Shown: one piece after another, positions 6,567 to 32,889 of the stretch | How the letters are laid out: each line of letters opens with the position of its first letter | Numbering within the stretch: the first letter of the stretch is position 1 | From: Salinibacter altiplanensis | Lineage (GTDB): Bacteria > Bacteroidota > Rhodothermia > Rhodothermales > Salinibacteraceae | Direction of reading: 5' to 3' | Assembly (NCBI RefSeq): GCF_002894645.1 | Contig: NZ_NCQY01000023.1 | Location: 58,841 to 122,840 of the forward strand | DNA: 64,000 nt | Translations under genes and position numbers: made by a program | Notes under the pieces: generated by a model | Seen by the model: only the letters and a program-made list of their open reading frames with translations | Told to the model about the DNA's origin: nothing | The model's database searches: none

Positions 6567-7337
6567 TCATTCCGTCACGGTGTCGACCCGCCGGGCCATA
6601 AAGCCGATGCGGTCTTCGTACCCGTAGGTCGACATGAGCACCGGGTAAAAGGGCTCTTCGGCCCGCCGCACAGTTCCATTTCTTTGCGCAAATACCTCTC
6701 CCGCCTCCACCCGCCGAAAATTCTCAGCGACGAACTCGAAGCCCCGTCCCGAGGCGTCCCCAAATACCTCGTACACCTGCGGGGTAGAGCGAACATAGGG
6801 ACGATCGATGAGGCCCTCCGCGGCCAGGAAGTGGAGCAGGATGCGGTGTGCACTGGACGCTGCGCCCTCGTCGTCGTGGTATCCACACTCGATGGCCACG
6901 CCCGTGACGTGCGCCGTCACCCCTCCCCCGACGTGGCTCATCTCGACGAGGCGATCCAGCCCCGTCGATCGGGCAAGCCGCCGGGAGGCCGTATCCCCGC
7001 CCGTCGCAATCACGTACGGGCAGCCCCGCGACTCGGTGGAGTGAAAATCGATCACGGTGGTGCCGTCCAGCTCGCGTCGGAGGCGCGCCCCGAGGCGCAC
7101 CTCGTGCTGTTCGCTCGACGCGTCGCCGGGCATCGACCGGTTCAGGTCTGCATCGCAGAACCGGTAGCCGAGCTTAAACGCTCGTTCGTTGGCGAGCACA
7201 AACTTGACCGGGGCCTGCAGCGTCACATCGCTCGCCTTGAGGCGGTTGAATGCGTGCCAGCCGCAGGTCTCGTCGCCGTGCACACAGGCCAGGATGGTGT
7301 ATTCGGGGCGGCCGTCGCCGAGGGTTTCGACGTGCAT
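6567..7337 (-). CDS. Succinylglutamate desuccinylase/aspartoacylase-family zinc hydrolase
   Basis: About 256 residues. The zinc-site signatures of the AstE/AspA branch of M14-like enzymes are present: HGDETCG near residue 20, DLNRSMPG near 65, and DFHST near 95. These proteins remove an acyl or carboxyl group from an amino acid derivative using one zinc ion. The substrate cannot be read from the sequence. I chose the ATG at 7337 because the beta-strand before HGDETCG then starts the protein; a TTG at 7403 would add 22 residues with no family support. No signal peptide, so probably cytoplasmic. Confidence 0.8.
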   Translation of the reverse strand: MHVETLGDGRPEYTILACVHGDETCGWHAFNRLKASDVTLQAPVKFVLANERAFKLGYRFCDADLNRSMPGDASSEQHEVRLGARLRRELDGTTVIDFHSTESRGCPYVIATGGDTASRRLARSTGLDRLVEMSHVGGGVTAHVTGVAIECGYHDDEGAASSAHRILLHFLAAEGLIDRPYVRSTPQVYEVFGDASGRGFEFVAENFRRVEAGEVFAQRNGTVRRAEEPFYPVLMSTYGYEDRIGFMARRVDTVTE

Positions 7338-7490
7338 CGTTAAAGTAGTGAGTGGGTGTACTGCGGATTGTGGAGTGACCAAGTGCAGCTGTACGGCACT
7401 CAAGAGAGCCTGTTACGGGCCGGGCCTCGCGACGACGCCTTCTCGGCGAGGACAACGACCAAGGGCACAGCGATCTGTGAGGACGGCCGA

Positions 7491-7808
7491 CTACTCACGG
7501 GTGTCGACGATCACCTCGTAGTGGACCACCTCGTCCTCAAACCGACGGAGCAGCGAGCGGGCAGTGGGCGGCACGTGCGCGTCCTCGGGCGTTTCTCCGA
7601 CAAACTCTCGAACGGCATCCATCGAGACAAAGCGGAGGAGCGTCATGAACGCCACCTCCTTTCCGACCGGCCGCCGATGCACCTCCGCCCCACGAAACCC
7701 TTCGCCACTCTGGGCAGCGATGTCGGGCAGGATCTCGGTTCGAAGCAGCCGCTCGTACCGGTCCGCATCGTCCAGGGCCGTCCAGCCCCGCCATACGCGA
7801 GCAATCAT
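7491..7808 (-). CDS. Antibiotic biosynthesis monooxygenase (ABM) domain protein
   Basis: 105 residues from the ATG at 7808. It starts MIARVWRGWT, has a YERLLRTEILPDIA helix, and a GFRGAEVHRRP / EVAFMTLLRFVS strand pair, the ferredoxin-like dimeric alpha/beta barrel of ABM proteins. Members include quinol and aromatic oxygenases and proteins of unknown role, so the reaction is uncertain. It lies 153 bp before the zinc hydrolase on the same strand. A 21-residue upstream extension is possible but unlike the family. Confidence 0.75.
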   Translation of the reverse strand: MIARVWRGWTALDDADRYERLLRTEILPDIAAQSGEGFRGAEVHRRPVGKEVAFMTLLRFVSMDAVREFVGETPEDAHVPPTARSLLRRFEDEVVHYEVIVDTRE

Positions 7809-7917: not shown

Positions 7918-9411
7918 TCATCCCGAGGACTTCTCTTCCGCCACCGGCACCTCCATAGACGCCGCCGCGGGCGCTGAGCCGTTCGACGCGGTCGGCACAG
8001 CCTCTTCTTCGACGGCCCGCTCCACCTGGTGGTGGAAGCGCGCGAGCAGAAGGACAGACGCCGCGGCGAGCCCCGTCACCAATCCCCACCAGAGCGCCTC
8101 CGGCCCACCGCCCCCGCGCACGCCCCACAGGTACCCCGTCACGAGGCCAATGCCCCAGTACGTTCCCACCGCGATGCCCATGGGCACTCGGGTATCTTTG
8201 AGGCCCTGCAGCGCGCCGTGGGCCGCCACCTGCAGGCCGTCGAACAACTGAAAGACCGCCGCCACCCCCAGCAGCTGAACGGCCAGCGCAACGACCTCGG
8301 TGTTGCCGGGATTCGCGAGGTCCAGGTAGAGCCCCACGATGGGCCGCGGCAATGTCCAGAAGAGGATGGCCGTCCCTGCCATGAAGAGGGTGGCAAGCCC
8401 CATGGCCACCCCACCGGCCCGGCGCGCCCCCGCCTCGTCCTGCGCCCCAGCCGCCTGCCCCACCCGCACCGTCCCAGCCATTCCAATGCCGAGCGGCACC
8501 ATGAAGGCAAACGCCGCGCACTGCAGGGCCACCTGGTGGGCCGCGAGCGCCGTCGTCCCCAGCGTGCCCATCATCACCGTCGTTACCATGAACAGGCTTG
8601 ACTCCACGCCTCGCGACGCGCCCATGGGCGCCCCCACCCGCACCAGTTCCTGCAGGGTGGGGAGGTCCGGCTCACGGAGCCGGGCAAATACCCCATGGGT
8701 CGAGAACGGCTCTGTGTGGTAGACAAACAGGGCCAACAGGCCGAAGAGAGCCGAGAAGACGATCGTGCTCGCCCAGCCGGTGCCGGCCAGCCCGAGCGCC
8801 GGCACTCCCCAGTAGCCAAACATCAGCAGCTCGTTGGCCCCAATGTTCACCCCCACGCCAATGAACGCGATGATGGTCACCGGGAGCGGGCGCGAGAGCC
8901 CCTCCACGAAGCTGCGGAGGGCGGCGAACCCCAAAAACGGCAGGATGCCCCACCGGATGGCGTCGAGATACGTCGTCGCATCCTCGATGGCCGCCGGCCC
9001 CTGCCCCGTCCACCGCAGGACCGGCTCAACGTTGCTCAGAATCAGGAGGATGACCACGCCCAGTCCGCCCGCCAGCCACAGGCCCTGCCGCGCGCTGCGT
9101 CCCACCGCCGCCGGGGCCTCCGCCCCCACGGCCTGCGACACTAGGGGCCCCACGGCCCGGACCATGCCCATCCCCATGATCGCGAAGAAGAAAAAGACCG
9201 TGTGCCCGAGGGCCACCCCCGCCAACGCCTCCGGCCCCAGACGCCCCACCATCACCGTGTCCACAAAGCTCATGGAGATGTGCGCCAGCTGGGCCGCCAC
9301 AACGGGCCCCGCCAGGCGGAGCGTGGCGCGAAGCTCATGGTACAGAGCGGAGGAGAACACAGGAGTAATGGAGCGAAGGAGTGTTTGAACAGATGCTTTT
9401 GAACGTGGCAT
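7918..9411 (-). CDS. MATE-family multidrug/sodium antiporter
   Basis: 497 residues with about twelve hydrophobic segments. The first MatE half begins at ELRATLRLAGPVVAAQLAH with SFVDTVMVGRLG, the usual N-terminal MATE signature; a second similar half follows. The family exports cationic drugs or metabolites in exchange for Na+ or H+ across the inner membrane. The ATG at 9411 is chosen because it places the first helix at the family position; an upstream start would add 48 polar residues. The C-terminal tail is acidic and low-complexity. The substrate cannot be inferred. Confidence 0.9.
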   Translation of the reverse strand: MPRSKASVQTLLRSITPVFSSALYHELRATLRLAGPVVAAQLAHISMSFVDTVMVGRLGPEALAGVALGHTVFFFFAIMGMGMVRAVGPLVSQAVGAEAPAAVGRSARQGLWLAGGLGVVILLILSNVEPVLRWTGQGPAAIEDATTYLDAIRWGILPFLGFAALRSFVEGLSRPLPVTIIAFIGVGVNIGANELLMFGYWGVPALGLAGTGWASTIVFSALFGLLALFVYHTEPFSTHGVFARLREPDLPTLQELVRVGAPMGASRGVESSLFMVTTVMMGTLGTTALAAHQVALQCAAFAFMVPLGIGMAGTVRVGQAAGAQDEAGARRAGGVAMGLATLFMAGTAILFWTLPRPIVGLYLDLANPGNTEVVALAVQLLGVAAVFQLFDGLQVAAHGALQGLKDTRVPMGIAVGTYWGIGLVTGYLWGVRGGGGPEALWWGLVTGLAAASVLLLARFHHQVERAVEEEAVPTASNGSAPAAASMEVPVAEEKSSG

Positions 9412-9830
9412 GGGAACTGCCGTTCGTCGCGATGACGGGGAGGCGTGCCCGTTTTGGGAGAACTTCCCGTTCGGGCCCGGCCCTTTTTGACGTCTCGAAC
9501 TGGCCGCCTCGCTGACGACGAGGTGTTTCAACGAGGCGTACCGCGACACACCCATGAGACGAACGCGATACAGCCACCCAGGATTTCGGTCGTCGTCTTC
9601 TCTGCCCCCGTTCTCCTACCCCCTCCTTCGTGGCCGACAGACCCGGAAAGCGTATCCATCCTGTGAATCGATGCGGATCGCGACGCTTCGGAACGCGCCT
9701 TGTCTTCTGTAGAGGGTGGACGCGTTTGATTGGGTTGGCGCCCGCGGGGGCCTCCAGGCCACGGAATGCGTCTTCGCAGAGCGATTTCGATCGCGCATTG
9801 CAGTTTTCTCACCAGTCAGCACCACAGACC
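9412..9830. other. Divergent intergenic region
   Basis: This lies between the divergent MATE exporter and a lipoprotein gene and should hold both promoters. I see no credible coding frame, repeat or RNA structure in it. Confidence 0.5.
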
Positions 9831-10667
9831 ATGATACGATCTACACTCCTACGGTCCCGCCTTGCCCCCCTGGCCCTCGTCGCTGCGATGGCCCTCGCCT
9901 TCGCCGGCTGTGATTCCACCGGTCCCTCCTCCAATGGGAACGGCGAGGTACAGGTGGGCTTTTCGACGTCCTCTTCCGGGGCCACACAATCGACGAACGC
10001 GCTCGTCAAGGTCAACTCCGACACCTTGACGCTCTCGGGCTCGAACGGCACCCTCGAATTTTACGACCTTCGCCTGATCGTCGACAAGGTGAAGCTGGAG
10101 CAGGACTCGGAGGATCAAGGCTCCGACAATGAAGGCGACGACAGTACGGAGGTGGAAATCGAACGCGAAGTTGAGGTGGAGCGGCCCCGCTTCCTGGACC
10201 TTCCGCTGCAAGGATCTGAGGTCTCGCCCGTGGCCGCCGGAGACGTGCCGGAAGGCACCTACAACGAGTTTGAGTTCGAGGTCGACGACCTCGACGACGA
10301 CAATGGAAATGCTCGCGAACTGCTGTCGGACATCCAAAACGAGGAAGGATTCCCGAACTGGCCCGAAGACGCCAGTATGGTGGTCGTCGGCACCTTCACC
10401 CCCACCGACGGCGCGCCGACCTCCTTCACCACGTACTTCGAGGCCGAAATTGAAGTTGAGCGGGCATTGCAACCGCCCCTCGAGGTCACCGGCGAGGGCT
10501 TCTCGCGCGATCTCATCGTGCGGCTCGACCCGGCGCAGTGGTTTGAGCGCCCGAACGGCACCCTCGTGGATCTCTCCCAATCCGACTACAACACCGGTGA
10601 GGAGCCGGTGGAGTTCGAGGCCGAATACGAGTTCGAAGACGGCGTCTCGGAGATCGAGTTTGAGTAG
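9831..10667 (+). CDS. Acidic lipoprotein, DUF4382-like
   Basis: 278 residues. A signal peptide ends in the lipobox LAFAGC with the acceptor cysteine near residue 25, so it is probably anchored in a membrane. The mature part starts with a serine-rich linker, then strands such as LEFYDLRLIVDKVKLEQ, very acidic runs (SEDQGSDNEGDD) and a late region with EVTGEGFSRDLIVRLDPAQW. The layout resembles DUF4382-type lipoproteins, whose role is unknown. The gene is followed immediately by a strong terminator. Confidence 0.65.
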   Translation: MIRSTLLRSRLAPLALVAAMALAFAGCDSTGPSSNGNGEVQVGFSTSSSGATQSTNALVKVNSDTLTLSGSNGTLEFYDLRLIVDKVKLEQDSEDQGSDNEGDDSTEVEIEREVEVERPRFLDLPLQGSEVSPVAAGDVPEGTYNEFEFEVDDLDDDNGNARELLSDIQNEEGFPNWPEDASMVVVGTFTPTDGAPTSFTTYFEAEIEVERALQPPLEVTGEGFSRDLIVRLDPAQWFERPNGTLVDLSQSDYNTGEEPVEFEAEYEFEDGVSEIEFE

Positions 10668-10684
10668 GGGTCCCGGCCAAAAGC

Positions 10685-10723
10685 AGCCTGACCGGTGGTG
10701 CCAACCGGTCAGGCTTTGCTTTT
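10685..10723. terminator. Bidirectional rho-independent terminator between convergent genes
   Basis: A perfect 12-bp stem (AGCCTGACCGGT at 10685-10696, ACCGGTCAGGCT at 10704-10715) with a 7-nt loop, followed by TTGCTTTT on the plus strand. The stem overlaps the stop codon of the minus-strand gene ending at 10709, and a run of A before the stem could serve as its T-tract. Confidence 0.85.
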
Positions 10724-11182
10724 GCCGTCCCGTGTATCTTCAGATGCCATCCCCCGGGATTGTTCTATTGCCTGCTTCAGGGCCTCCGGCTCGTCGGTAC
10801 CAATGCGAATCTGCCCCTCTCCGCGAATTGTGAGCTCCACGGCCCGCAGCCCGGATACGTTGTAGAGCCAGCCGTGGGGCGTGTAGCGGATGCCCCAGCC
10901 ATAGAGCGCCAAATTCCGGACGATCTCCGTGCTGATAATGTCGTCGAGGACGAAGCGCCGCGTCCAGAAGCCCGGTCCGAAGTAGAACGCCAGCTCCTCG
11001 TCGCTCACCTGAACCGTTAGGCTGGAAAAGAGAACCGCAAGAATGCTGAAGGCCCCAAACATCGTGTAGCCGAGCATTCCCAATTCCCCGTCTTCGGCCA
11101 TGTGGGCGTAGTAGATGAGGGGCAGGAGGGCGAGCGAAAGACCTCCCGTCACGTACCCGACTTGCGTGTGCTCGTATCGCAT
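10709..11182 (-). CDS. Membrane protein with a PH-like domain
   Basis: 157 residues from the ATG at 11182. Two hydrophobic segments near the N-terminus (YVTGGLSLALLPLIYYA and YTMFGAFSILAVLFSSL) are followed by a soluble part with SDEELAFYFGPGFWTRRFVLDDI, alternating beta-strands and GIRYTPHGWLYNVSG. This layout is common in small bacterial PH-domain (YdbS/DUF304-type) membrane proteins of unknown function. Its stop codon sits inside the shared terminator. Confidence 0.6.
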   Translation of the reverse strand: MRYEHTQVGYVTGGLSLALLPLIYYAHMAEDGELGMLGYTMFGAFSILAVLFSSLTVQVSDEELAFYFGPGFWTRRFVLDDIISTEIVRNLALYGWGIRYTPHGWLYNVSGLRAVELTIRGEGQIRIGTDEPEALKQAIEQSRGMASEDTRDGKSKA

Positions 11183-20726: not shown

Positions 20727-22349
20727 ATGCCGACGTTTTCCTCTCGCACGTACAAGTTGATGTGGGATGCACATTCGATGACGGGCATCGTCATCGGATT
20801 GGCGCTCTTTGTGCTCTTCGTGACGGGGGCACTGCTGCTCTTTTGCGGAGAAATTCGGCAGTGGGAAGAGCCCTCTCTGCGAGCTTCGCCGGGCGAGCAG
20901 GCCTCCCTGAAGGCCATGACGGGACCCGTTCTCGACTCGCTTGGGCGAGGAGACACGCCGCCCTCCTACGTGTACTTGGGGCTTCCGGACGCCGGGCACG
21001 ACAACCTGTACGTGTACGCAACCGGCGGGACCGTGGGCGCGTCGCACGACGCGTGGGTGAATCCAAAGAGCGGGGCGTGGGTCGCCAATCCCAATGAGGG
21101 CGCGATCACGCAGACGTTGTACTACCTCCACTTCTTTTATCAGTTTGGACTCTGGGGCCTCTACCTGTCGGGTGTCATTGGCCTGTTTGCCCTGTTGGCC
21201 GTCGTGACCGGGACCACCGTTCATTTCGACCGCCTTGTCAAGGATTTCTTCCAGTTTCGCCCCAGTGAGAAACTGCGCGTCGCGTGGGCCGATGCCCACA
21301 AGGTCCTCGGCACCATCGGCCTGCCGTTCCAGACGATGTATGCCTTCACCGGGGCGTACCTCGGCCTGGTGGGCTTGATTGCTCTTCCGTACGCGTCGCT
21401 CCTTTTCGACGGAAGCATGGCCGACTTTTACCGAGAGGCCGGGTACTACGCCCCTACCGTTCAGGTCGACTCGGTGGAGACGGCGTCGCCGACGGGAACG
21501 AGCCTGGACCAGTTGGCCGCCCGGGCCCGGAACGCCTGGCCGAACTTCGATCCGAAGACGATGATCGTCTCTAACATGGGAGAGCCCGACAGCCGTGTGG
21601 AAGTGATCGGGCGGACGCGGGGCTCGGCCTTCGGGGGCACCGGCTCCCTCGTCTTTCATGGCGCAACGGGAGAAGAGCTGCTACGCGATCCTCCCAGCGA
21701 GGCGGGGGCGCTGAACCAGGCCGTCCAAAGCATGGAGGTGCTCCACTTTGCAGAGTTTGGCGGCCTGGCGCTCAAAATCCTGTTCTTCCTCCTGGCGCTG
21801 GCGTCGAGCGCCGTTATTCTGACGGGCAACTTTACCTGGCTCGAAGTGCGCCGGACGCAAGACCGCACGATCAACACGATCCTGGCTCGTCTCACGGCGG
21901 GGGCGGCCACGGGAATGGCACCGGCCACGGCGCTCCTGTTCTTATCTGCCCACTGGAGACCTAGCGGAGCGATCTCCCCCGACGGCTGGACCGATCTCGT
22001 CTTCTTCGGAAGCTGGGGGCTCTGCGTGCTCTACGCACTGGTTCGACCGAACATTGCCTGCGTGCACCGCGCCCTGCTCGCCACCGGCGGCGTGCTCGCC
22101 CTGCTGATTCCGCTCGCCAACGGGCTCGCCACGGGGGACTGGCCGTGGGTCGCGTGGGCAGCCGGGCGCGGAGCCGTGGTGGGTGTGGATGTGGGGGCCG
22201 TTCTGTGTGGACTTGCGCTGCTGGGCCTTGCGGCGGGCCTGGACGTGGAAGCCGCCCCGCCGCCGCCCACCGATCAGGACCGACGTGAGGAAGAGCGTAC
22301 GTCCGCTTCGGGGAGAACACCGGAGGAGGTCTTGCTGGATACGGCGTGA
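20727..22349 (+). CDS. PepSY-associated transmembrane protein (siderophore-reductase-like)
   Basis: 540 residues. The first helix has the family layout (MWDAHSMTGIVIGLALFVLF followed by TGALLLFCGEI), a periplasmic loop follows, then LYYLHFFYQFGLWGLYLSG with paired histidines, ADAHKVLGTIGLPFQTMYAF, and VLHFAEFGGLALKILFFLL. PepSY_TM proteins such as PiuB, FoxB or FsrB sit at siderophore loci, and some reduce the ferric complex with heme bound by the conserved helix histidines. Three extra C-terminal helices and an acidic tail follow. It is translationally close to the DUF3649-like gene. Confidence 0.85.
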   Translation: MPTFSSRTYKLMWDAHSMTGIVIGLALFVLFVTGALLLFCGEIRQWEEPSLRASPGEQASLKAMTGPVLDSLGRGDTPPSYVYLGLPDAGHDNLYVYATGGTVGASHDAWVNPKSGAWVANPNEGAITQTLYYLHFFYQFGLWGLYLSGVIGLFALLAVVTGTTVHFDRLVKDFFQFRPSEKLRVAWADAHKVLGTIGLPFQTMYAFTGAYLGLVGLIALPYASLLFDGSMADFYREAGYYAPTVQVDSVETASPTGTSLDQLAARARNAWPNFDPKTMIVSNMGEPDSRVEVIGRTRGSAFGGTGSLVFHGATGEELLRDPPSEAGALNQAVQSMEVLHFAEFGGLALKILFFLLALASSAVILTGNFTWLEVRRTQDRTINTILARLTAGAATGMAPATALLFLSAHWRPSGAISPDGWTDLVFFGSWGLCVLYALVRPNIACVHRALLATGGVLALLIPLANGLATGDWPWVAWAAGRGAVVGVDVGAVLCGLALLGLAAGLDVEAAPPPPTDQDRREEERTSASGRTPEEVLLDTA

Positions 22350-22764
22350 CGCCGGACGGTAAGGGGGAAAGGAGAGCTCAGACAGGATGGGGACGCTGAA
22401 CAAGTTGCGAGGGCGGGCTCGTTGGCCGGTGTAATGCTCGTCATCGTCGCTGCGGGACCGGTCCTGCCCCACCGGGCGGTCCGGCGGTGACCTCGGGCGC
22501 CCGGTGGAGAGCAGCACCAACGCGCCCCGCACAGTGCACGGACGCGTCGAAACGCCCCGTCCCGGTACACCGACGGACCTGAAGGTTTGCGGGCAGTCCC
22601 CCCAGGCCCGACTGTTCATTTTGTTTTCACCGCAACGGGCCGGGGATAGCCTTGCAAGTATCGGGACTACCCGGTAGGGTTTGACTGGCTACGTTGTTTA
22701 TAACTAGTCTAAATAGTAAAGAAAGCCCTCCGCTTCCTCTCTGACGTTCTCTTTCCTCACTTTT
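22350..22764. other. Intergenic region before the heme receptor
   Basis: No coding frame here convinces me. The right end contains TTGACT (22681-22686) and operator B. The sequence is GC-rich up to about 22670 and AT-rich from there to the receptor start, as expected of a promoter region. Confidence 0.5.
22699..22716. promoter_or_regulatory. Candidate iron/metal-regulated operator B
   Basis: TATAACTAGTCTAAATAG, 48 bp before the heme receptor ATG. The first eight bases, TATAACTA, also occur in site C, and AGTCTAAATA also occurs in site A. A TTGACT lies 12 bp upstream, so a bound repressor would cover the promoter. Confidence 0.6.
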
Positions 22765-24969
22765 ATGATTCGACGAGATCCCCGTCTTGCCTGCGTGACC
22801 ACTGCCCTGGCGGTTCTTCTGAGTCTGGGGCTCCCCGCACTTGCGTGGGGCCAGGCGCCGGCCGTTGCCCCCAGTGACTCCGCGGCACAGGCCGACTCCC
22901 TCTGGTCGATCGACATGAATCCCGTCGTCGTGACGGCCACCAAGACCCGGACATCGCTGAACGACGTGACGGTCCCGGCCTCGGTCATCACGAATGAGGA
23001 CATTGAGGCGCGCGGGTCGCTGCGCCTGTCCGAGCTACTGCGCGAGGAGACGACCTTCCAGTTCGATTACTCGCACGGCACGGGCGTCCAGGTTCAGGGG
23101 CTTGACCCCGAGTACACGCTGCTCCTCGTGGATGGCGAGCCGATGGTTGGCCGCACGGCGGGCACGCTCGACCTCGATCGCATAAGTGTCAGCAACGTTG
23201 AGCGCGTGGAGGTTGTCCGCGGGCCTTCGTCGTCGCTCTATGGGAGCGAGGCGCTGGCCGGCGTCATCAACGTCATCACCGGAGAGCCCCAGCAGTCGCG
23301 GTCGCTCTCGGTGAGCGGGCGCCTTGGGCGCTACACGACGGCGGACCTCAACGCAACGGGCGAGTTCGTGGAAGGGCCGCTGTCCGGGTCCGTCTCGGCG
23401 AATTTCTACCGGACGGACGGCTACGACTTGAGCGAGGACGCCATCGGCCAGACAACCCCGGAGCAGGACGACTACACCGTGACGTCCGACCTGGCGTACG
23501 ACCTGGGCGCGGCCACGACCCTGGACGTGAACGGCCGCCTCAACGTGAAACAGACGGACTACCGGACCGCCAATCGCCAGCAGCAGACCCTGAACGGCGA
23601 ACGTGACCAGACGGACTGGAACGTAGAGACGACGCTCCGCCACGAGTTTCGGCCCGGCCTTCGCGGACAGACCACCCTCTACGGCTCGTGGTTCAACTTC
23701 GACCGCACGGAAACCCTCCAGCAGAGCGGGGAGGTGGACGATGAGCTAAGCACCGATCAGTTCTACGGCAAGGCGGAGACAGAGTGGAACGTGACACTGC
23801 CCCACGACAACCTCGTGACGGCCGGCGGCGGCCTTATCACCGAGTCGATCTCGGGGGTCAACCTGCTCCGGAACGGCACTGAGCGGCGCAAGAGCGGATT
23901 CGTGTTCGTCCAGGACGAGTTCTCGCCGACGGACTGGCTACAGCTGACCGCCAGCGCCCGCTTCGACGCCAACGAGGACTACGAGTCGGAGCTGAGCCCG
24001 AAGGGCGGCGTTCTCGTTGAGCCCGTCGATGGGCTGCGGCTGCGGGCGTCGGTCGGCACTGGCTTCAAGGCGCCTACCTTTCGGGAGCTCTACTACGACT
24101 TTACGAACAACTCGGCGGGCTACACGGTGATCGGGGCGGACCAACTGAACAGCGGCGTCGACCGCCTCCGCGAGAACGGACGCATCGCCCGGGAGCTCGA
24201 TCGCTTTGCGGACATCGAGGATCTGGAGCCGGAGAATTCGCTGTCGTTCAACGGCGGGGTCGAAACGGACCTCCTCCCGCAACTCAGCACGTCGGTCAAC
24301 CTCTTCCACAACGACGTGGAGAACCTGATCGACTCGCAGCTCATCCTGCAGAAGACCGGCGGCGGGCCCTTCCCCTTCGTGTTCACCTACTTCAACGTGG
24401 GAGAGGCCTTCACCCAGGGGCTGGAGTCGGAGGTGACGCTGCGCCCGCTCCGCGGCACGGACCTGGAGACGTCGCTGGGGCGTGTGGAATTGACGGCCGG
24501 CTATCAGTACCTGGAGGCCAAGAGCCGGGATGACATCGACGACATCGAGGCGGGCGAGCTCTTCCGCGTGCCGAACGACCCGCAGAGCCCGAACTTCGAC
24601 CCCAACGCGCCCACGCTACAAGAGGGCGACTACATCGGGCTCTTCAATCGCTCGAAGCACTCCGGCTCCCTGAAGCTCCGCTACCAGCACGATCCGCTGG
24701 GCCTTACCGTCACGCTGCGCGGCACGTACCGGGGCGACTACGGCTTTGCCGACACGAACCAAAACGGCGTCTTCGACGAATTCGACGACGAGGCAGACGG
24801 CTACACGTTCTGGAACACGACGGTCCGCAAGACCCTGCTCGACCGCGCGACGCTCACGCTCGGCGTGGAAAATCTGACGGACGCATCGCCGGAGTACACG
24901 CCCGGGTCGCCGGTTCCCGTCTTTGGCGGACGCGAGTTCTACGCCGGCCTCTCGATGCAGCTCTATTAG
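22765..24969 (+). CDS. TonB-dependent heme/cobalamin-type receptor
   Basis: 734 residues with signal peptide (LAVLLSLGLPALAWGQ). A TonB box-like DMNPVVVTATKTRTSL is followed by a plug with PASVITNEDIEARGSLRLSE, LLLVDGEPMVG and VEVVRGPSSSLYGSEALAGV, then a barrel ending GLSMQLY. The plug is of the BtuB/HmuR type, used for cobalamin, heme or hemophores. Because binding protein, permease, ATPase and HmuS/HemS genes follow in line, heme is the better substrate guess. It lacks the carboxypeptidase-like domain of the other receptors. Candidate operator B is just upstream. Confidence 0.9.
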   Translation: MIRRDPRLACVTTALAVLLSLGLPALAWGQAPAVAPSDSAAQADSLWSIDMNPVVVTATKTRTSLNDVTVPASVITNEDIEARGSLRLSELLREETTFQFDYSHGTGVQVQGLDPEYTLLLVDGEPMVGRTAGTLDLDRISVSNVERVEVVRGPSSSLYGSEALAGVINVITGEPQQSRSLSVSGRLGRYTTADLNATGEFVEGPLSGSVSANFYRTDGYDLSEDAIGQTTPEQDDYTVTSDLAYDLGAATTLDVNGRLNVKQTDYRTANRQQQTLNGERDQTDWNVETTLRHEFRPGLRGQTTLYGSWFNFDRTETLQQSGEVDDELSTDQFYGKAETEWNVTLPHDNLVTAGGGLITESISGVNLLRNGTERRKSGFVFVQDEFSPTDWLQLTASARFDANEDYESELSPKGGVLVEPVDGLRLRASVGTGFKAPTFRELYYDFTNNSAGYTVIGADQLNSGVDRLRENGRIARELDRFADIEDLEPENSLSFNGGVETDLLPQLSTSVNLFHNDVENLIDSQLILQKTGGGPFPFVFTYFNVGEAFTQGLESEVTLRPLRGTDLETSLGRVELTAGYQYLEAKSRDDIDDIEAGELFRVPNDPQSPNFDPNAPTLQEGDYIGLFNRSKHSGSLKLRYQHDPLGLTVTLRGTYRGDYGFADTNQNGVFDEFDDEADGYTFWNTTVRKTLLDRATLTLGVENLTDASPEYTPGSPVPVFGGREFYAGLSMQLY

Positions 24970-25031: not shown

Positions 25032-25049
25032 TATTTAGACCGCCTACTA
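25032..25049. promoter_or_regulatory. Candidate metal-regulated half-site D
   Basis: TATTTAGAC (25032-25040) is the exact complement of the GTCTAAATA core of sites A and B, and the following bases are a weak second arm. It abuts the start codon of the heme-binding protein gene. It may be chance or a weak internal operator. Confidence 0.35.
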
Positions 25050-25930
25050 TGATGCGATCCGCTGCGCTGCTTCTTGCTAGCTGCCTCCTTGCGTTCGCCG
25101 CGCACGCGCAGCCCACCGCCGACACGAGCCGCATCGTCACGCTCGGCGGCTCGGTGACGGAGATCGTGTACGCACTCGGCGCGGGGAGCCACGTGGTGGG
25201 CGTGGACGCGTCGAGCCTCTACCCGGAAGCGGCGACGGAGAAGCCGAGCGTGGGCTACTTCCGACGGCTGCCCGCCGAAGGGGTGCTGTCGCTCGACCCG
25301 TCGCTGGTCCTAGCGCTGGAGGGCACCGGCCCGCCGACCGTGCTCGATCAGTTGCGGAGCGCGGGGGTCCGCACTGAACTGATCGAGAATGAGCCGACCG
25401 TGGAGGGCACGACCCGGAAGATTCGCCGGATCGCCGGGCTGCTCGGGCGCGAGGCGCAGGCCGATTCGCTGATCCAGGAGATGGAAGCGGCCCTTGCGGA
25501 GGCGCGGTCGCTGCGCCAGAGGGCCACATCCTCCCCACGCGTGCTCTTCATCTACGCCCGCGGCAGTGGCACGATGAACGTGGCGGGCACCGGCACGTCG
25601 GCCGAGGCGATGATCGAGCTCGCCGGCGCGAAGAATGCCGTCTCTGGATTTGAGGGCTTCAAGCCGATGTCCGCCGAGGCCGTTGCTAGTGCGGAGCCGG
25701 AGGTCATCCTCATGCTCACGCGGGGGTTGGAAAGCATCGGCGGCGTCGACGGACTGCTCGAACAGCCGGGCATTACACTCACACCCGCCGGGGAGAACCA
25801 GCGCATCGTGGCGATGGACGACCTGCTCCTGCTCGGCTTCGGCCCGCGCCTGGGCACGGCGGTGAAGCAGCTCACTGAGAAGCTGCACCCGGAGCTGGAC
25901 CCCGCGTCCTCATCGGCCAGCCGGCAGTAA
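25049..25930 (+). CDS. hmuT: Periplasmic heme-binding protein of an ABC importer (HmuT-like)
   Basis: 293 residues: signal peptide (MMRSAALLLASCLLAFAAHA), then the BtuF/HmuT fold with RIVTLGGSVTEIVYALGAGS, HVVGVDASSLYPEAA, PSVGYFRRLPAEGVLSLDPS and TGTSAEAMIELAGAKNA. The type III substrate-binding protein carries its ligand to the permease encoded 16 bp downstream. Heme is preferred over cobalamin because a HemS/HmuS gene belongs to the cluster. The extreme C-terminus is low-complexity. Confidence 0.85.
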   Translation: MMRSAALLLASCLLAFAAHAQPTADTSRIVTLGGSVTEIVYALGAGSHVVGVDASSLYPEAATEKPSVGYFRRLPAEGVLSLDPSLVLALEGTGPPTVLDQLRSAGVRTELIENEPTVEGTTRKIRRIAGLLGREAQADSLIQEMEAALAEARSLRQRATSSPRVLFIYARGSGTMNVAGTGTSAEAMIELAGAKNAVSGFEGFKPMSAEAVASAEPEVILMLTRGLESIGGVDGLLEQPGITLTPAGENQRIVAMDDLLLLGFGPRLGTAVKQLTEKLHPELDPASSSASRQ

Positions 25931-25946: not shown

Positions 25947-27104
25947 ATGGAATCGTCAATAGATACGCATCCCGGTGAGGACGCAGAACGTGCTGCGCCC
26001 GCGTCCCGCAACGGGGTCGGTTCTCCGGCCATGTCGATGCGGGTGCAGCACCAGCGGCGGGCCCGGCTCGTCCTGGGCGGGCTCGTCGCGCTCCTGCTCG
26101 GGGCGGTGGGGGCGAGCCTGGCGCTGGGGGCGGTGACGATCACGCCGGGGCAGGTGCTCGCGATCTTGGGCGAGCAGGTCGGGCTCGCGCTCCCGTGGGC
26201 CTACGAGACGCGCCAAGAACTCGTGCTAACGGTCATCCGCCTGCCGCGCGTGCTCTTGGCGATCAGCGTGGGCGGTGGACTCGCGGTGAGCGGCGCGGTG
26301 ATGCAGGGCCTCTTCCGCAACCCGCTGGCCGACCCCGGCCTCATCGGCGTGTCGAGCGGGGCGTCGCTGGCGGCGGTCGTAACGATCGTGCTGGGGTCGA
26401 CGGTGCTCGGCGCGTGGAGTGACACGCTCGGCGCCTTCCTGCTGCCGGCCGCAGCGTTCGCCGGTGGCGTGGTCGCGACGCTCGTTGTCTACCGCCTCGC
26501 GACACGCAATGGGCAGACGTCCGTCACGACGATGCTGCTGGCGGGCATTGCCATCAACGCGCTGGCGGGCGCCGGCACCGGACTCATGATCTTCATTGCC
26601 GACGACGACCAGCTGCGCGACCTCACGTTCTGGACCCTCGGCAGCCTCGGCGGAGCGACGTGGACGCAGCTCGCCGTCGTGGGGCCGTGCCTGCTGGGCG
26701 GGATGCTCGCGGCCCCGCTCCTGGCGCGCCCACTCAACGCGCTGCTGCTGGGCGAAAGCGAAGCGCGGCATCTGGGCATCCGCACCGAGCGGGTGAAGAG
26801 GCTCGTCGTCCTGCTGGCGGCGGGCGTGGTGGGCGCGGCAGTGGCGGTGAGCGGCATCATCGGCTTCGTGGGCCTCGTCGTGCCGCACCTGCTGCGCCTA
26901 GCCGTGGGGCCGGATCACCGCGTACTCATCCCCGGCTCGGCAATCTTGGGCAGCACGCTCCTCCTGGGGGCCGACCTTCTGGCGCGCACGATCGTCGCCC
27001 CCGCCGAGCTCCCCATCGGCATCGTGACGGCGCTGGTGGGCGCGCCCTTTTTCTTATGGCTCCTGCTGCGCGACCGCCAGCGCGGCGTCGGCTACTCGTT
27101 CTGA
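25947..27104 (+). CDS. hmuU: Heme ABC transporter permease (HmuU-like, FecCD family)
   Basis: 385 residues with about ten hydrophobic segments after a 30-residue polar head. FecCD signatures are clear: IRLPRVLLAISVGGGLAVSG, QGLFRNPLADPGLIGVSSGA, FWTLGSLGGATW, the ATPase-coupling loop around LGIRTERVKRL, and GFVGLVVPHLLRL. It forms the inner-membrane channel for heme with the neighbouring binding protein and ATPase. The reading frame starts 16 bp after the binding-protein stop. An internal ATG about 29 codons in is an alternative start. Confidence 0.9.
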   Translation: MESSIDTHPGEDAERAAPASRNGVGSPAMSMRVQHQRRARLVLGGLVALLLGAVGASLALGAVTITPGQVLAILGEQVGLALPWAYETRQELVLTVIRLPRVLLAISVGGGLAVSGAVMQGLFRNPLADPGLIGVSSGASLAAVVTIVLGSTVLGAWSDTLGAFLLPAAAFAGGVVATLVVYRLATRNGQTSVTTMLLAGIAINALAGAGTGLMIFIADDDQLRDLTFWTLGSLGGATWTQLAVVGPCLLGGMLAAPLLARPLNALLLGESEARHLGIRTERVKRLVVLLAAGVVGAAVAVSGIIGFVGLVVPHLLRLAVGPDHRVLIPGSAILGSTLLLGADLLARTIVAPAELPIGIVTALVGAPFFLWLLLRDRQRGVGYSF

Positions 27105-27168
27105 CGCACAGGTGCTGCCTCGATCGTGCCTCGCCTCTCGCAATCCCCCTTCGCACTCTACTTCGGCT

Positions 27169-28422
27169 ATGATTCGTCCTGCCCGTATCGTCATCTGGTG
27201 CACGGTCGCGCTGCTGACACCCCTTATCCAGGCCCCCACGCACGCTCAACCCGCACGGGTTGCGGACGAGACAACGCTGCATGACCTGCGCGTGGACGTC
27301 GGGTACCTCTCGTCCGACCTGCTGAAAGGCCGCGAGACGGGGACCGACGGGGAGCGCCTCGCCGCGCAGTACATCGCCGAGCGCTTCCGGGAGCTCCGCC
27401 TCGACAGTACATGGACGCAGCCGTTTGACTTTACGTACAGCCCGAACCCACACGCGTCGCCCGAGGAAGGTGAGCCGCGCACCGGGCGAAACGTCGTCGG
27501 GCACCTCGACCGCGGGGCGGCCCACACCGTCGTCATCGGCGCGCACTACGACCACCTCGGCTACGGCGGCGTCGGGTCGCGCGCACCGGGCGACTCGCTC
27601 ATCCACAACGGCGCCGACGACAACGCAAGCGGCGTCGCGGCGCTCCTGGAGATCGCCCACCAGCTTCAGTCCGCCGATGCGGAGGGCAGCAATGTTCTCT
27701 TCGTGGGCTTCTCCGGGGAAGAACTGGGGCTTTACGGCTCGAAGCACTTCGTCGACGCGCTTTCTGTGCTCGCCGACCGGGTGAGCTACATGATCAACCT
27801 TGACATGGTGGGCCGCCTCGGCGACGAGCGCAGACTGGCCGTAAACGGCACCGGCACTTCGCCCGCCTGGGACGCCGCCCTCGACGCGGCGGCCGGCGCC
27901 ACGGACATCACGCTTGCCGAAGACCCGTCCGGCCTCGGTGCGTCCGATCACACGTCGTTTTATCTCGACGACATCCCGGCGGTGCACCTCTTCACCGGTG
28001 CGCACGATGACTACCACACCCCCGCCGACGACAGCCACCGCATCGACTACGACGGGCTGCACGACGTGGCCACGTTCGCCGTCCGCCTCGTCGAAGCCCT
28101 GGACGATGATGGCGCGCTCGCGTTTACTGAGACCGACGATGAGCAACAGGGCCGCCGGATGTCGTTCGACGTCACCTTCGGCATTATGCCCGACTACGTC
28201 TTTGAAGGTGAGGGCATGCGCATCGACGCAGTGACGGAGGAGGACGGCCCGGCGGCGCGCGCAGGGCTGCAGGAAGACGACGTCATCGTGCGCGTCGGAA
28301 GCGTGGCGGTGGACGACATCTACGCCTACATGGACGCGCTGGGCCAGTTGGAGACCGGGGACACGGTCCCCGTCGTCGTGGAGCGCGACGAGCAGACATT
28401 GGAAAAGACGGTCCAGTTCTGA
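27169..28422 (+). CDS. Exported M28-family zinc aminopeptidase with C-terminal PDZ domain
   Basis: 417 residues with signal peptide ([20 protein letters not shown]). The two-zinc site of M28 peptidases is complete: His near 126 in GAHYDHLG, Asp near 150 in NGADDNASG, the Glu pair in GEELGLYGS near 184, Asp in NLDMVGRL, and His in DYHTPADD near 283. Residues 330-417 form a PDZ domain with [18 protein letters not shown]. It sits inside the heme cluster between permease and ATPase genes, on the same strand. Degrading haem proteins or peptides is possible, but the position may be incidental. Confidence 0.88.
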
Positions 28423-28514
28423 CCGCGCCTACAGATTGTACGCGCCCGGTTTCACTTGCTGCCGGAGAGCACCCCGGAACGATGCCTCTTCGTGATTGCA
28501 CGCCGCCACGTCCC

Positions 28515-29333
28515 ATGCTTGCGCTCCGCGACATCACAGTACAGATTGGGGACGCGACGCTCATCGAGAGCGTGACCGCCAAGGTGCACTCCGGGCAGCT
28601 GACGGCGGTGGTGGGGCCGAACGGAGCGGGCAAGACGACGCTCCTGCGCGTCGCCACGGGCGAGCTGGCGCCGTCGGCCGGAACGGTGGAGATGGGCGAC
28701 CGGCCGCTCGAGGCACTCCCCGAGCGCGAACAGGCGCGGCGCCGGGCCGTGCTGCCGCAGCAGTCGCAGCTCCACTTTGCGTTCTCCGTGCTGCAGGTCG
28801 TGCTGATGGGACGGACGCCGCACCTTCGGGGGGCGGAGTCGGCCCGGGACTGGGAGGTTGCACACGCCGCGCTCCAGGCCGTGGCGATGGACGACTTCGC
28901 CGAGCGCGACTTCCCGACACTCTCGGGCGGAGAGCAACAGCGCGTTCACCTGGCCCGCGCGCTGGCGCAAATCTGGACGCCGCCGGACGCCGGGCACCGC
29001 TACCTGCTCCTGGACGAGCCGACCGCCAGCCTCGACCTCGCGCACCAGCACCAGGTGCTGCAGACCGCCGCTGGCCTGGCCGCCGACGGCGTGGGCGTGC
29101 TGGCCATCCTCCACGACCTGAACCTCGCCGCGCAGTACGCCGACCACGTCGTGATGCTGCGGCGCGGCATGGCCCACGCGAAAGGGCCGCCGCGCGACGT
29201 GTTCACACCGGCGGGGGTCGAGGACGTGTTCGGCTGTCCCGTCCGCGTCATCGCCCACCCCACACAGCCATGCCCACTTATCGTGCCGGACGCGACGGCC
29301 CCTGCGTCCCCCCCCGCTGTTCCTACAGCATAA
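28515..29333 (+). CDS. hmuV: Heme ABC transporter ATP-binding protein (HmuV-like)
   Basis: 272 residues from the ATG at 28515; an ATG at 28482 would add 11 residues. Walker A is GPNGAGKTT, the Q-loop is LPQQSQLHF, the signature is [15 protein letters not shown], Walker B is [12 protein letters not shown] and the switch His is in ILHDLN. The spacer [13 protein letters not shown] between signature and Walker B is typical of HmuV (heme) rather than BtuD or FhuC proteins. It supplies energy for the permease encoded 1.4 kb upstream, with the peptidase gene between them. Confidence 0.9.
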
Positions 29334-29372: not shown

Positions 29373-30440
29373 ATGCCCACACAACCTCTCGACGCCCCCG
29401 ACCTGAAAGCGCACTGGGAGACGTTCCAGGACGAGCACCCCGATGTCCGCATCCGTACCGCCGCCGACCGAATGGGCGTCAGCGAAGCGGAGCTCGTGGC
29501 CACCGGGTGCGGCGAGCACGTCACGCGCCTCGACGGCGACTGGAACGCGCTCCTCCGTGCGCTCGAATCGCTTGGCGAGGTGATGGCCCTCACGCGCAAC
29601 GACGCCGCCGTCCACGAAAAGACGGGCGTCTATCGGAACGTCGAGTTCACCGACCCTCACAACATGGGCCTCGTGCTGGACGACGACATCGACCTGCGCC
29701 TGTTCATGAACCACTGGCACCTCGGCTTCGCCGTCGAAACGCCCTGGGACGGGGGGCGCGGCGGCGTGCGCCGGAGCCTCCAGTTCTTCGACCGCGACGG
29801 GACGGCCGTCCACAAGGTGTTTCTCACGCGCACGAGCGATCTGGGCGCCTACGACGCACTCGTCGACACGTACCGGCACGACGACCAGTCCATCGCGCAG
29901 GCCGTCACGCCGACCGAGGACGCCCCGGCAGAGACGCCCGACGAGGAGATCGATGTGGAGGGCTTTCTGCAAGAGTGGAGCGAGCTGGAGGACACGCACG
30001 ACTTCTTCCCGCTCCTTCGTACGTACGAGGTCTCGCGGGCCCAGGCACTGCGGTTTGGCGAGGGACCGTTTACGCGCCGTGTGCCGGACGACAGCCTGCG
30101 CGAAATGCTCAAGACCGCTGCCGAGCGGGAGACGCCGATCATGGTGTTCGTCGGCAGTCCCGGCTGCATTCAGATCCACACCGGCCCGGTGAATGCGCTC
30201 AAATCCACACCGCCGTGGTACAACGTGCTCGACCCCGGCTTTCAGCTGCACCTGCATGAAGAAGAGATCGATCAGGCCTGGGTGGTGAAGAAGCCGACGA
30301 TTGACGGAACCGTGACCTCGCTGGAGTTGATGGACGCGGAGGGCGGCATCATCGCCCGCTTCTTTGGCAAGCGCAAACCGGGCCGGCCAGAGCGAGAGGA
30401 CTGGCGCTCCATTCTGGCGGCCCTGCCGTCGGAGCCGTAG
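29373..30440 (+). CDS. hmuS: Heme-handling cytoplasmic protein (HmuS/HemS family)
   Basis: 355 residues, the usual length. Two repeated halves are visible: the first has VMALTRNDAAVHEKTGVYRN and RLFMNHWHLGFAV, the second has PIMVFVGSPGCIQIHTGPVN and FQLHLHEEEIDQAWVVKKPT, ending in a P-RE-WR-IL tail. HemS-type proteins accept heme from the HmuTUV importer and store, deliver or degrade it in the cytoplasm. It begins 39 bp after the ATPase gene. No signal peptide, in line with a cytoplasmic role. Confidence 0.9.
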   Translation: MPTQPLDAPDLKAHWETFQDEHPDVRIRTAADRMGVSEAELVATGCGEHVTRLDGDWNALLRALESLGEVMALTRNDAAVHEKTGVYRNVEFTDPHNMGLVLDDDIDLRLFMNHWHLGFAVETPWDGGRGGVRRSLQFFDRDGTAVHKVFLTRTSDLGAYDALVDTYRHDDQSIAQAVTPTEDAPAETPDEEIDVEGFLQEWSELEDTHDFFPLLRTYEVSRAQALRFGEGPFTRRVPDDSLREMLKTAAERETPIMVFVGSPGCIQIHTGPVNALKSTPPWYNVLDPGFQLHLHEEEIDQAWVVKKPTIDGTVTSLELMDAEGGIIARFFGKRKPGRPEREDWRSILAALPSEP

Positions 30441-30546
30441 TCTTTTTCCTGCACGCGGCCTCCCCCACGCGATCTTCACGAGGACGGTCCCTGCCCCCCT
30501 TGCAAGTGCACTACAGAATCGGTAGCGTTGAACTGCACCGCTTATT

Positions 30547-30564
30547 TATAACTAATCTAGATAA
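30547..30564. promoter_or_regulatory. Candidate iron/metal-regulated operator C
   Basis: TATAACTAATCTAGATAA differs from site B at three positions in 18 bases. It lies 162 bp before the chelatase-like gene and starts a new transcription unit after hmuS. TTGAAC at 30528-30533 is placed as TTGACT is before site B. Confidence 0.58.
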
Positions 30565-30726
30565 CGAATGCATTCCGGTGTCCGTGGTCGGACGGCTCTC
30601 GGCCGAATGAAGACGGAAATGGGGTGCGTGAGGAGTGATGGCGCGCCCTGAGGGCAACGTTCTCACGCGTCATGCTTTCCGGTTCGCTTTCGCTCATCCG
30701 CAATACGAAATACGCAACAGTCGCTC

Positions 30727-32397
30727 ATGTCCCGCCTCCTTCAGTTCCTCTTCGCCGCTCTTCTCGTCGCTGCGCCCCCTGCCTGGGGCCAATCGGCCGA
30801 CGCCCCCGACGGCGACCCCGGTGTCCTCGTCCTGGCGCCGGACCGTGGCTTTCTCGGCAACGAGAAGACGCGCGACGCCATGGCCCATTTCCGGGAGCAC
30901 ACGTCGAACGTTGGGCTTGCCGTCGCCACGTACGAAGAAACCCGGTCGAACCTGAACGAGGCGCTCTCCTCAATCGACACCGAGCACGGCGTGGTGGTTC
31001 TTCCGCTCTTTCTGTCGGCCCACCACGCACTCTACCAGACGGCCCGCGACGCCCTGCCGGAGGTAGAGAACGGCGTGCGGTGGGCCGCCCCACTGGGGAC
31101 GAGCTACCTGAGCGAGGAGCTTCTCTTCGACCGCGTGGACGCCCTCTCGGAGCGCCCGGACGAGGAGGCATTGGTCGTGGTCGGCTACGGGGCCACGAAC
31201 GCTGAAGGAGCCGACGCCATCCGGGCCGATCTTCAGGCCTCCGCCCGGCGAGCCGCCGAGATGCACGGGCTGACCGGGGGGAGCGAGGTGGTCGTACAAT
31301 ACGCACGGACAGCACCGGAGAAGGCATCCCGCGCGGCCATCGGACGCGCCACCAAGACCGTGAAGGCCGCGGCCAGCAAGCATGAGCGCGTGCTGGTGGT
31401 GCCCTTCAACCTTGGGATGCAGTACACCACCATGATGTCGAGCTGGTCGTGGATGCAGCGGCCGCTCCAGTCCATCGACGGCGTGGTCGCCAGCGGCGCG
31501 GACGTACTCTCTCACCCGAACGTCGAGCGGTGGCTCCGGCGCACCACCACCGCGCACCGCCCCCTCGCTCGCGACGAGGTGGGTGTCATCGCCGTGCCCC
31601 ACGGCTCGGAGTACAACTGGAACGAGACAATGCGCGAAGGCCTCGCGCCGGTTGCGGACGACTACACCATGGCCGAGGCGTTCAGCATGGTCGACCCGAC
31701 GGTCGTGGAACGGGCCGTGCGCACGTTGGAAAGGGACGGCCTAAAGGCCGCCGTCATGGTCCGTATCTTTTCGATGGAGAGCAGTTTTCGGGAAAAGTCG
31801 CACTACATACTGGGCCTACAGAACACCTACAGCGGCGGGATGGGCGGGCGCTTCCCGGAACGCATCCGGACCCACCTGCAGATGACGACACTCGGCGGAC
31901 TGGAGGCGAGTCCCCACTTCGCGAAGGGCCTCCTCGACCGCGCCCGGGCCATCAGTCAGGCCCCGTCGGATGAGACCGTCATCCTCCTGGCGCACGGGAC
32001 GGGCTCGGACACAGAGAACGCACACTGGATGAGCAACCTTCGCACCATTGCCGACACGATGCGGGCCCACGGCGGCGATGCGTTCCGCACCATCAAGGTG
32101 CACACCTGGCGCGAAGACTGGCCCGAGAAGCGCACGGAGACAATTCCTGAGATCCAAGACATGGTCCGCGAGGCGTCCGAGGACGGCACGGCACTCGTCA
32201 TTCCCGCCCGCACCACGTCCGAGGGGCGCGCCTCCGAGTACCTCGACGACCTCGACTACCGGTACGGCAAGGGGCTGGCCCCACACCCGCAGTTCGAGGC
32301 CTGGATGCGCGAGCAGATCGAGACCGGCATCGACCGCCTCCGGGCGGCGCCTCAATCCCCCGACCCGGCCACGACGACCGCCGGACCCCCGCAGTGA
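30727..32397 (+). CDS. Exported protein with three CbiX-like chelatase units
   Basis: 556 residues with a signal peptide (LLQFLFAALLVAAPPAWGQ). Three segments have the CbiX/CbiK pattern. Unit 1 (about 32-175) reads VLVLAPDRGFLGN and VVVLPLFLSAHHALY, without the first His. Unit 2 (about 285-400) has IAVPHGSEYNWNE (His 292) and a late FREKSHYILGL. Unit 3 (about 415-540) has ILLAHGTGSDTENAH (His 423) and GLAPHPQFEAW. Class II chelatases use such His residues to insert Co or Fe into tetrapyrroles. Export and the neighbouring heme genes suggest periplasmic tetrapyrrole-metal chemistry, as for periplasmic CbiK of Desulfovibrio. Reaction and direction are inferred. Confidence 0.8.
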   Translation: MSRLLQFLFAALLVAAPPAWGQSADAPDGDPGVLVLAPDRGFLGNEKTRDAMAHFREHTSNVGLAVATYEETRSNLNEALSSIDTEHGVVVLPLFLSAHHALYQTARDALPEVENGVRWAAPLGTSYLSEELLFDRVDALSERPDEEALVVVGYGATNAEGADAIRADLQASARRAAEMHGLTGGSEVVVQYARTAPEKASRAAIGRATKTVKAAASKHERVLVVPFNLGMQYTTMMSSWSWMQRPLQSIDGVVASGADVLSHPNVERWLRRTTTAHRPLARDEVGVIAVPHGSEYNWNETMREGLAPVADDYTMAEAFSMVDPTVVERAVRTLERDGLKAAVMVRIFSMESSFREKSHYILGLQNTYSGGMGGRFPERIRTHLQMTTLGGLEASPHFAKGLLDRARAISQAPSDETVILLAHGTGSDTENAHWMSNLRTIADTMRAHGGDAFRTIKVHTWREDWPEKRTETIPEIQDMVREASEDGTALVIPARTTSEGRASEYLDDLDYRYGKGLAPHPQFEAWMREQIETGIDRLRAAPQSPDPATTTAGPPQ

Positions 32398-32466: not shown

Positions 32467-32889
32467 ATGCACAACCTCCACGGCCCCGACCGCCTCTTCG
32501 AGACCCGCTACGGCCACGTCCTGCAGTGTGCCTGCTGCAGCCGCATCCAGATCACCCTCCGCGAACACACGCTGCTGGTAGACGCAGACGAGTTGGAGGC
32601 CCTGACCGACACGATCAAGCACGCCTGGGCCAAGGTGCGCAACGAAGACGGGCAGGATCAGTGGACCCTCCAGGCAGGGACCGATGCCGGTCCCGTGTCC
32701 ATCACGCTCTCCGAACCGTCGCTCTACACGCTGCACATCCTTCTCCAGGGGGCCTGGTCGATGTACACGCTCCGAGAACGGGTGTGGGCCGTGGTGGGCG
32801 GCGCGGACAACCACCGCGCCCGCGACGTGCTGCACAACCATGTGCCTCCCGCTCAGTCACGGTGGGGCCGCCTCGACCAGTCCTCATAA
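32467..32889 (+). CDS. Small CxxC protein, DUF6686-like
   Basis: 140 residues. Near the N-terminus ETRYGHVLQCACCSRIQITL has a CxCC cluster that could hold a metal, then LLVDADELEALTDTIKHAW. The same pattern (gly-tyr, CxxC, I-I-L, then an acidic helix) occurs in small Bacteroidota proteins I would assign to DUF6686, function unknown. The second half contains short strands and a final basic/acidic tail. It follows the chelatase-like gene by 69 bp and precedes a methyltransferase by 17 bp, so the three may be co-transcribed. Confidence 0.55.
   Translation: MHNLHGPDRLFETRYGHVLQCACCSRIQITLREHTLLVDADELEALTDTIKHAWAKVRNEDGQDQWTLQAGTDAGPVSITLSEPSLYTLHILLQGAWSMYTLRERVWAVVGGADNHRARDVLHNHVPPAQSRWGRLDQSS

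Follow-up and report, generated by a model that had tools for sequence, protein, structure and literature searches.

A predicted double class II chelatase-fold protein beside the heme uptake genes of Salinibacter altiplanensis and its possible role in periplasmic heme processing

Gene organization and promoter elements of the heme uptake locus

The window, meaning the whole 64,000-nucleotide stretch of Salinibacter altiplanensis DNA analyzed here, carries a heme uptake cluster on the + strand, as the original prediction had it, and we identified a TonB-dependent receptor, an HmuT-type protein, a FecCD permease, an ABC ATPase, and HemS as its members. It is preceded by a gene for a PepSY_TM membrane protein resembling PiuB and ferric reductases (positions 20727 to 22349, +; Pfam PF03929, E 3.6e-51), which is also found upstream of the receptor gene in two related loci, L085 and L124 (L numbers designate loci throughout). 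The receptor (22765 to 24969, +; PF00593/PF07715) is of the heme/B12 type and is paired with HmuY in relatives; it scored under the cut-off with both the TonB-hemin and the TonB-B12 models, the latter being its best NCBIfam match, far below the cut-off. Downstream lie the genes for the HmuT-type heme ABC binding protein (25049 to 25930, +; PF01497, E 7e-38), the HmuU permease (FecCD; 25947 to 27104, +; PF01032, E 5.5e-95), an M28 peptidase with a PDZ domain (27166 to 28422, +; PF04389, E 4.9e-42), the HmuV ATPase (28482 to 29333, +; PF00005, E 4.4e-26), and the cytoplasmic heme-handling protein HemS/ChuS (29373 to 30440, +; PF05171, E 6.8e-88). The position of the M28 peptidase, whose PDZ domain is C-terminal, between hmuU and hmuV is conserved in the HemS-type loci L119 and L120 of the same genus. 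The gene under study comes next and is followed by one for a small CxxC protein, DUF6686-like (32467 to 32889, +), which ends both versions of the locus described below. This small protein is 52% identical to the one following the candidate homologue in L085 and 77% identical to the one following HemS in L120, and its relative in L086 has a weak match to PF20391. HmuY was not found in the window's own genome, and the CobN/ChlH domain (PF02514) was detected neither in the protein under study nor elsewhere in that genome.

The candidate gene is a single uninterrupted open reading frame of 556 codons at positions 30727 to 32397 of the + strand, exactly as first called, and the signal peptide proposed for its product was confirmed. 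The N terminus, MSRLLQFLFAALLVAAPPAWGQ, consists of a short basic n-region followed by a hydrophobic signal sequence, and sequence inspection assigns residues 1 to 22 (30727 to 30792, +) to a Sec signal peptide. Relatives have export signals of their own, either signal peptides (for example, L034, L040, and L089) or lipoboxes (L053, L054, and L094). The window protein has no Cys at the cleavage region and so no lipoprotein anchor. The His residues claimed for HGS and HGT motifs were found at residues 292 to 294 and 423 to 425, respectively. Immediately 5' of the start codon is a repeat-like sequence, CGCAATACGAAATACGCAA (30700 to 30720), which is also present at L085 and L086, hence in three related genomes.

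Two copies of a 23-bp operator-like imperfect palindrome (consensus, TTATTTATAACTRRTCTAAATAA) are present in the window, one before the candidate gene (TTATTTATAACTAATCTAGATAA, 30542 to 30564, +) and one before the gene for the heme-type receptor (22694 to 22716, +). Both copies were located by a motif search of the window and the genome, with the promoter blocks aligned; the two matches compare with none in 100 shuffles, and the whole genome has three sites, compared with none for the reversed control. The third site (L132:4958-4980, corresponding to C16:145457-145479 of the same genome) lies about 100 bases before the gene for a paralogue of the DUF6686-like protein, which would place the small CxxC protein in the same iron/heme regulon. 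The palindrome also precedes the receptor gene in L085, L086, L124, L125, and L119 to L122, and in several of these loci it is accompanied by the upstream block CTTGCAAGT...CGGTAG. It appears to resemble the operators of metal regulators. Since it is common to both promoters, the candidate gene is tied to the heme receptor whatever the gene order.

Chelatase folds and active-site residues

By single sequence, the relationship of the protein to chelatases is weak. Pfam CbiX matched residues 45 to 101 with 20.9 bits, under the curated cut-off of 22, the CfbA model matched residues 286 to 348 with 17 bits, and a single-sequence search against solved structures returned chance matches only. The family is under-called by Pfam, because a PF01903 search across the window's own genome gave nothing above E 1e-3. 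Among relatives, Pfam CbiX scored 40.7 bits for the short-form protein of L048 and 60.4 bits for L053. By profile and by fold, however, the relationship is solid. Profile searches matched CfbA structures at E 1.9e-7, and an AlphaFold2 model of residues 23 to 548, built on a 16-row alignment (mean pLDDT, 90.8; pTM, 0.89), was compared with known folds by the use of Foldseek and VIA-align. Residues 284 to 541 resemble SirB (Z 19.4 over 232 residues, 3.1 Å), and residues 31 to 279 resemble CbiX 4ccs (Z 17.2), with HemH also matching the first half of the model at about Z 17. Further fold matches were periplasmic CbiK 2xvz (Z 16.6) and FetB 9b86 of Porphyromonas gingivalis (Z 15.4), the latter giving no match to the window protein by phmmer or profile.

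The two-lobe alpha/beta fold of class II chelatases is present in both halves of the model, according to which the protein consists of two such folds arranged in tandem, each of them complete, at residues 25 to 280 and 283 to 542. Three units had been counted originally; the model and HHalign instead give four lobes, that is, two full two-lobe chelatases, in the order N1-N2-C1-C2. Lobes N2 and C2 match each other at E 6e-12 and lobes N1 and C1 at E 1.3e-4, with no strong match between N1 and N2 or between C1 and C2, the pattern expected if a two-lobe unit was duplicated in tandem. The family profile likewise picks up N2 as a second copy, at E 5e-9 in the window protein and at values down to 6e-13 in relatives. 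Shorter relatives of about 300 to 330 amino acids comprise the C-terminal unit alone, with a signal peptide of their own. The Nitrospirota locus L088 has two full-length genes for double-chelatase proteins side by side (5854-7644 and 9107-10840), amounting to eight lobes.

In the N-terminal half, the HG histidines are lost in both lobes. The HG of lobe N1 (residues 30 to 144; 30814 to 31158, +) has become a conserved DRGFxGN (residues 39 to 45), and that of lobe N2 (residues 145 to 279; 31159 to 31563, +) has become GYG. As the DRGFxGN loop is nearly invariant across 14 long-form sequences, this half has been remodelled and has not merely decayed. The C-terminal half keeps one His per lobe, His292 in C1 (residues 283 to 409; 31573 to 31953, +) and His423 in C2 (residues 412 to 542; 31960 to 32352, +), and both are invariant in both family alignments. 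In profile alignments to CfbA structures, His292 coincides with the HG histidine found where strand 1 ends, which is His9 in CfbA and His10 in SirB. An intact pair of metal ligands is not present: the second His is replaced by Phe354, which aligns with CfbA His75 (the counterpart of SirB His76), CfbA Glu42 has no counterpart in the window protein, and the corresponding position in lobe C2 (PARTTSEGR) has no His. His423 falls at the position of SirB Arg134, as judged from the motifs LAHGTGSD and IGRGSSD and from the N2 alignment, and lobe C2 also has the invariant R-x-D of TWREDWP.

In SirB, His10, Glu43, and His76 are contributed by lobe 1, and Arg134 and Leu200 occupy the lobe-2 positions; in both CfbA and SirB, the cavity sits between the His/Glu/His and the lobe-2 positions (PMC11301274). 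Judged by homology to these two enzymes, the two lobes of the C-terminal half would thus each direct one His into a shared cavity, whereas the biosynthetic enzymes have a His pair within the same lobe. The original prediction had allowed for the His residues falling outside the active-site cleft; His292 and His423 align with cavity positions of the solved enzymes. SirB with a His at position 134 shows increased nickel-chelatase activity, which has been read as base catalysis (PMC11301274). In the distant homologues of L094, L095, L096, L098, and L099, the LG motif in lobe C1 is followed by a His-rich loop, where archaeal CfbA also has one.

Related loci and exchange with the heme import cassette

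Relatives of the candidate also occur in Balneolaceae, Nitrospirota, Deltaproteobacteria/Polyangia, Opitutaceae, and Nitrosomonas records. The scan of genome contigs relied on a narrower alignment, the broad one being too divergent, and its 15 loci are biased to the long form. A heme-type receptor gene is located directly upstream of the candidate homologue in many loci, and a gene for the lipoprotein HmuY (PF14064, all above the cut-off) lies between or beside the two in L085, L089, L093, L031, L035, L038, L048, L049, and L051 and likewise in L124 to L126. The order receptor-HmuY-candidate is seen in L085, L086, L089, L031, L124, L125, and L126, while L127 and L128 have distant relatives of the candidate near HmuY and a receptor. 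Across the order, HmuY is encoded within 6 kb of the candidate in 15 of the 40 carriers, and an association with iron or heme genes, which the original prediction had described for this one locus, therefore recurs among the homologues. Several short-form carriers (L040, L043 to L045, L050, and L052) have no heme genes nearby. In the Polyangia locus L095, a gene for the ferrous iron transporter FeoB (L095:7040-9091) ends 34 bp upstream of the candidate homologue, and L086 includes a gene for an Fe2+ transport protein. For Rhodothermus marinus, cbiX has been listed beside hmuY without comment (PMC6987092).

Two irregularities of these loci may be recorded here. The receptor gene by the candidate is split in two frames in L085 (6208-8319) and is cut to 131 amino acids in L092 (8739-9134), reflecting either decay or assembly error. 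Loci L090 and L091, identical to each other, face opposite ways on a single contig (JAJCYR010000091.1) and probably result from duplication during assembly.

Comparison of genomes from the same genus and the same family revealed two versions of the locus. In the first (L119 and L120, with L121 similar), the order is receptor-HmuY-HmuT-HmuU-M28-HmuV-HemS-DUF6686; in the second (L125, L085, and L086), it is receptor-HmuY-candidate-DUF6686, and L124 has the same arrangement without DUF6686 in the stretch examined. The slot between HmuY and DUF6686 therefore holds either the candidate or, in L119 and L120, the HmuT-U-M28-V-HemS genes, and relatives carrying the candidate have kept the receptor and not the ABC genes. 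The window locus is a hybrid in which both cassettes are present. At the level of whole genomes, the candidate and HemS occur together in only 1 of the 114 genomes of the order, the window's own, where 7.7 would be expected (p 4e-4), and the same single genome combines the candidate with a close HmuT (p 8e-4); both p values ignore shared ancestry, the genomes being related and not independent events, and are indicative only. Close HmuT proteins (44 to 100% identity, clearly separate from a background of 26 to 35%) are confined to genomes with HemS. Both alternatives, the candidate and HmuT/HemS, occur inside three separate genera. In relatives, the chelatase-fold protein probably stands in for heme import plus HemS. 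The CobN-type HmuS was considered as a missing partner and rejected for the order, with PF02514 found in none of its 114 genomes; elsewhere in the phylum, CobN matches come mostly from a single family, whose genomes have two copies each, and in that sample do not adjoin HmuY.

Proposed role in heme processing

We propose that the protein processes heme in the periplasm by means of its class II chelatase fold, most likely as a heme dechelatase (reverse ferrochelatase), an assignment to which we give an even chance of being correct. Heme would enter via the HmuR-like receptor, would be handed over by HmuY where this is present, and would be bound in the cleft formed by the C-terminal chelatase domain, where the opposed histidines of its two lobes would serve as axial ligand and as proton donor. 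Iron would be freed in the periplasm and taken in as Fe2+ by FeoB-type transport, making whole-heme import unnecessary. The N-terminal domain, with its changed and conserved DRGFxGN loop, may be a docking or substrate-handing half and not a second catalytic center. In the window's organism, this periplasmic route would run beside a complete HmuTUV-HemS route. Three points make periplasmic removal of iron the most economical reading: other carriers of the gene have no close HmuT or HemS, the gene occupies their slot behind the receptor, and there is a precedent in Bacteroides fragilis, where iron is released from heme in the periplasm and FeoAB is required (PMC6460266). Unpublished data quoted in the same work indicate that disruption of cbiK in B. 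fragilis leaves heme-iron use unaffected (PMC6460266). It also counts against a dechelatase that FeoB adjoins a candidate homologue in one locus only, that several of the short-form carriers stand apart from heme genes, and that the exclusion of HemS is seen among related genomes. Catalysis is not assured, since the metal-binding His pair of CfbA and SirB is incomplete, with Phe354 in place of the second His and the counterpart of Glu42 gone.

This incomplete metal site makes a non-catalytic heme carrier a serious rival, and one that we regard as possible, if on the doubtful side. His292 and His423 would then be opposed axial ligands, and heme from the receptor or HmuY would be passed to HmuT in this organism and to another acceptor elsewhere. 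The loss of the second metal-ligand His and of both HG histidines of the N-terminal half fits such a protein, as does the presence of a His on either face of the tetrapyrrole cavity, an arrangement suited to bis-His ligation (cavity geometry in PMC11301274), and the title of one paper calls Desulfovibrio CbiKP evolved into a haem-binding protein. Against a carrier, most genomes with the candidate lack the close HmuT and HemS that would receive the heme, and in relatives the gene replaces the importer cassette rather than accompanying it. It is unlikely that the protein is instead a periplasmic enzyme inserting cobalt or iron into sirohydrochlorin or another precursor, or a component of cobalamin/corrinoid uptake: the fold family is that of SirB and CbiK and the best NCBIfam match of the receptor, far below the cut-off, is the TonB-B12 model, but an Rfam scan of the window gave no match, hence no cobalamin riboswitch, the metal-insertion site is incomplete, and the neighboring HmuY and HemS are heme-specific families. 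A periplasmic metal-binding protein or metallochaperone for Fe2+, Co2+, or Ni2+, with no tetrapyrrole substrate, would account for the His-rich loops of the distant relatives named above but is very improbable, since that loop is absent from the window protein and its close relatives and the partnership with HmuY and the heme receptor is conserved.

The dechelatase reading is not new in kind. The CbiK-like IhtB of P. gingivalis, an exported lipoprotein whose gene lies with those for a receptor and an ABC transporter, has been proposed to strip heme of its iron (PMC10913741; PMC13227078). The window protein resembles IhtB/FetB of this Iht system (PDB 9b86) in being exported and in having its gene beside those for a TonB receptor and an ABC transporter, here HmuTUV; IhtB/FetB, however, is a single two-lobe lipoprotein, whereas the window protein is predicted to be a two-domain tandem with a cleavable signal peptide and is tied in relatives to HmuY and an HmuR-like receptor. 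The comparison drawn originally was with the CobN-type HmuS of Bacteroidota, which is apt functionally, as HmuS has a comparable place by an HmuR-type receptor and HmuY and the same proposed reaction (PMC12583661), but HmuS has an unrelated class I fold, and the direct precedent in IhtB/FetB (PMC10913741) was missed.

Among other known proteins, CbiKP, the periplasmic cobaltochelatase of Desulfovibrio vulgaris (2xvx/2xvz), is also exported and has the two-lobe class II fold; it is a single unit, in contrast to the duplicated window protein, whose second half has a single such His in each lobe. The metal histidines of CbiKP are in the C-terminal lobe. Bacillus SirB and archaeal CfbA, which provide the closest folds, are cytoplasmic, and the SirB site of His10/Glu43/His76 compares with His292, no counterpart, and Phe354 in the window protein, just as SirB Arg134 compares with His423. 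DR2241 of Deinococcus (2jh3) is likewise a multidomain protein with a chelatase-like part, but a TM-score of 0.38 by target indicates that only part of it corresponds, and to our knowledge it is not known as two tandem chelatase folds.

What is new here is the double-chelatase architecture, the C-terminal half with one His per lobe, the tie to HmuY together with a shared operator, and the exchange with the HmuTUV-HemS cassette; a limited literature search found no paper on any of these. The fuller claim, that a periplasmic dechelatase of class II fold, with one His per lobe on a double-chelatase scaffold, replaces the whole HmuTUV-HemS cassette behind HmuR/HmuY, we hold more tentatively, at somewhat under an even chance. 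If true, it would mean that a periplasmic and a cytoplasmic heme-iron module are interchangeable and are swapped within genera and that the window's species carries both. The protein is a candidate answer to the question of how bacteria without a CobN-type HmuS or HemS obtain iron from heme. Species of one genus that carry either the importer-plus-HemS cassette or the double-chelatase protein also constitute a natural swap experiment, and with them the long-standing suggestion of reverse ferrochelatase activity for CbiK-like exported proteins becomes testable in bacteria that are free-living and non-pathogenic.

Two Chlorobi-like genomes have two adjoining genes for exported CbiX-like lipoproteins near TonB receptors (L053:2609-5234 and L054:8564-11196), with PepSY_TM also encoded at L054. 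In these lipoproteins the second His is retained and its surroundings look canonical, for example, SPHSFDD, and the gene pairs could be similar to an ancestral, unfused state of the double protein.
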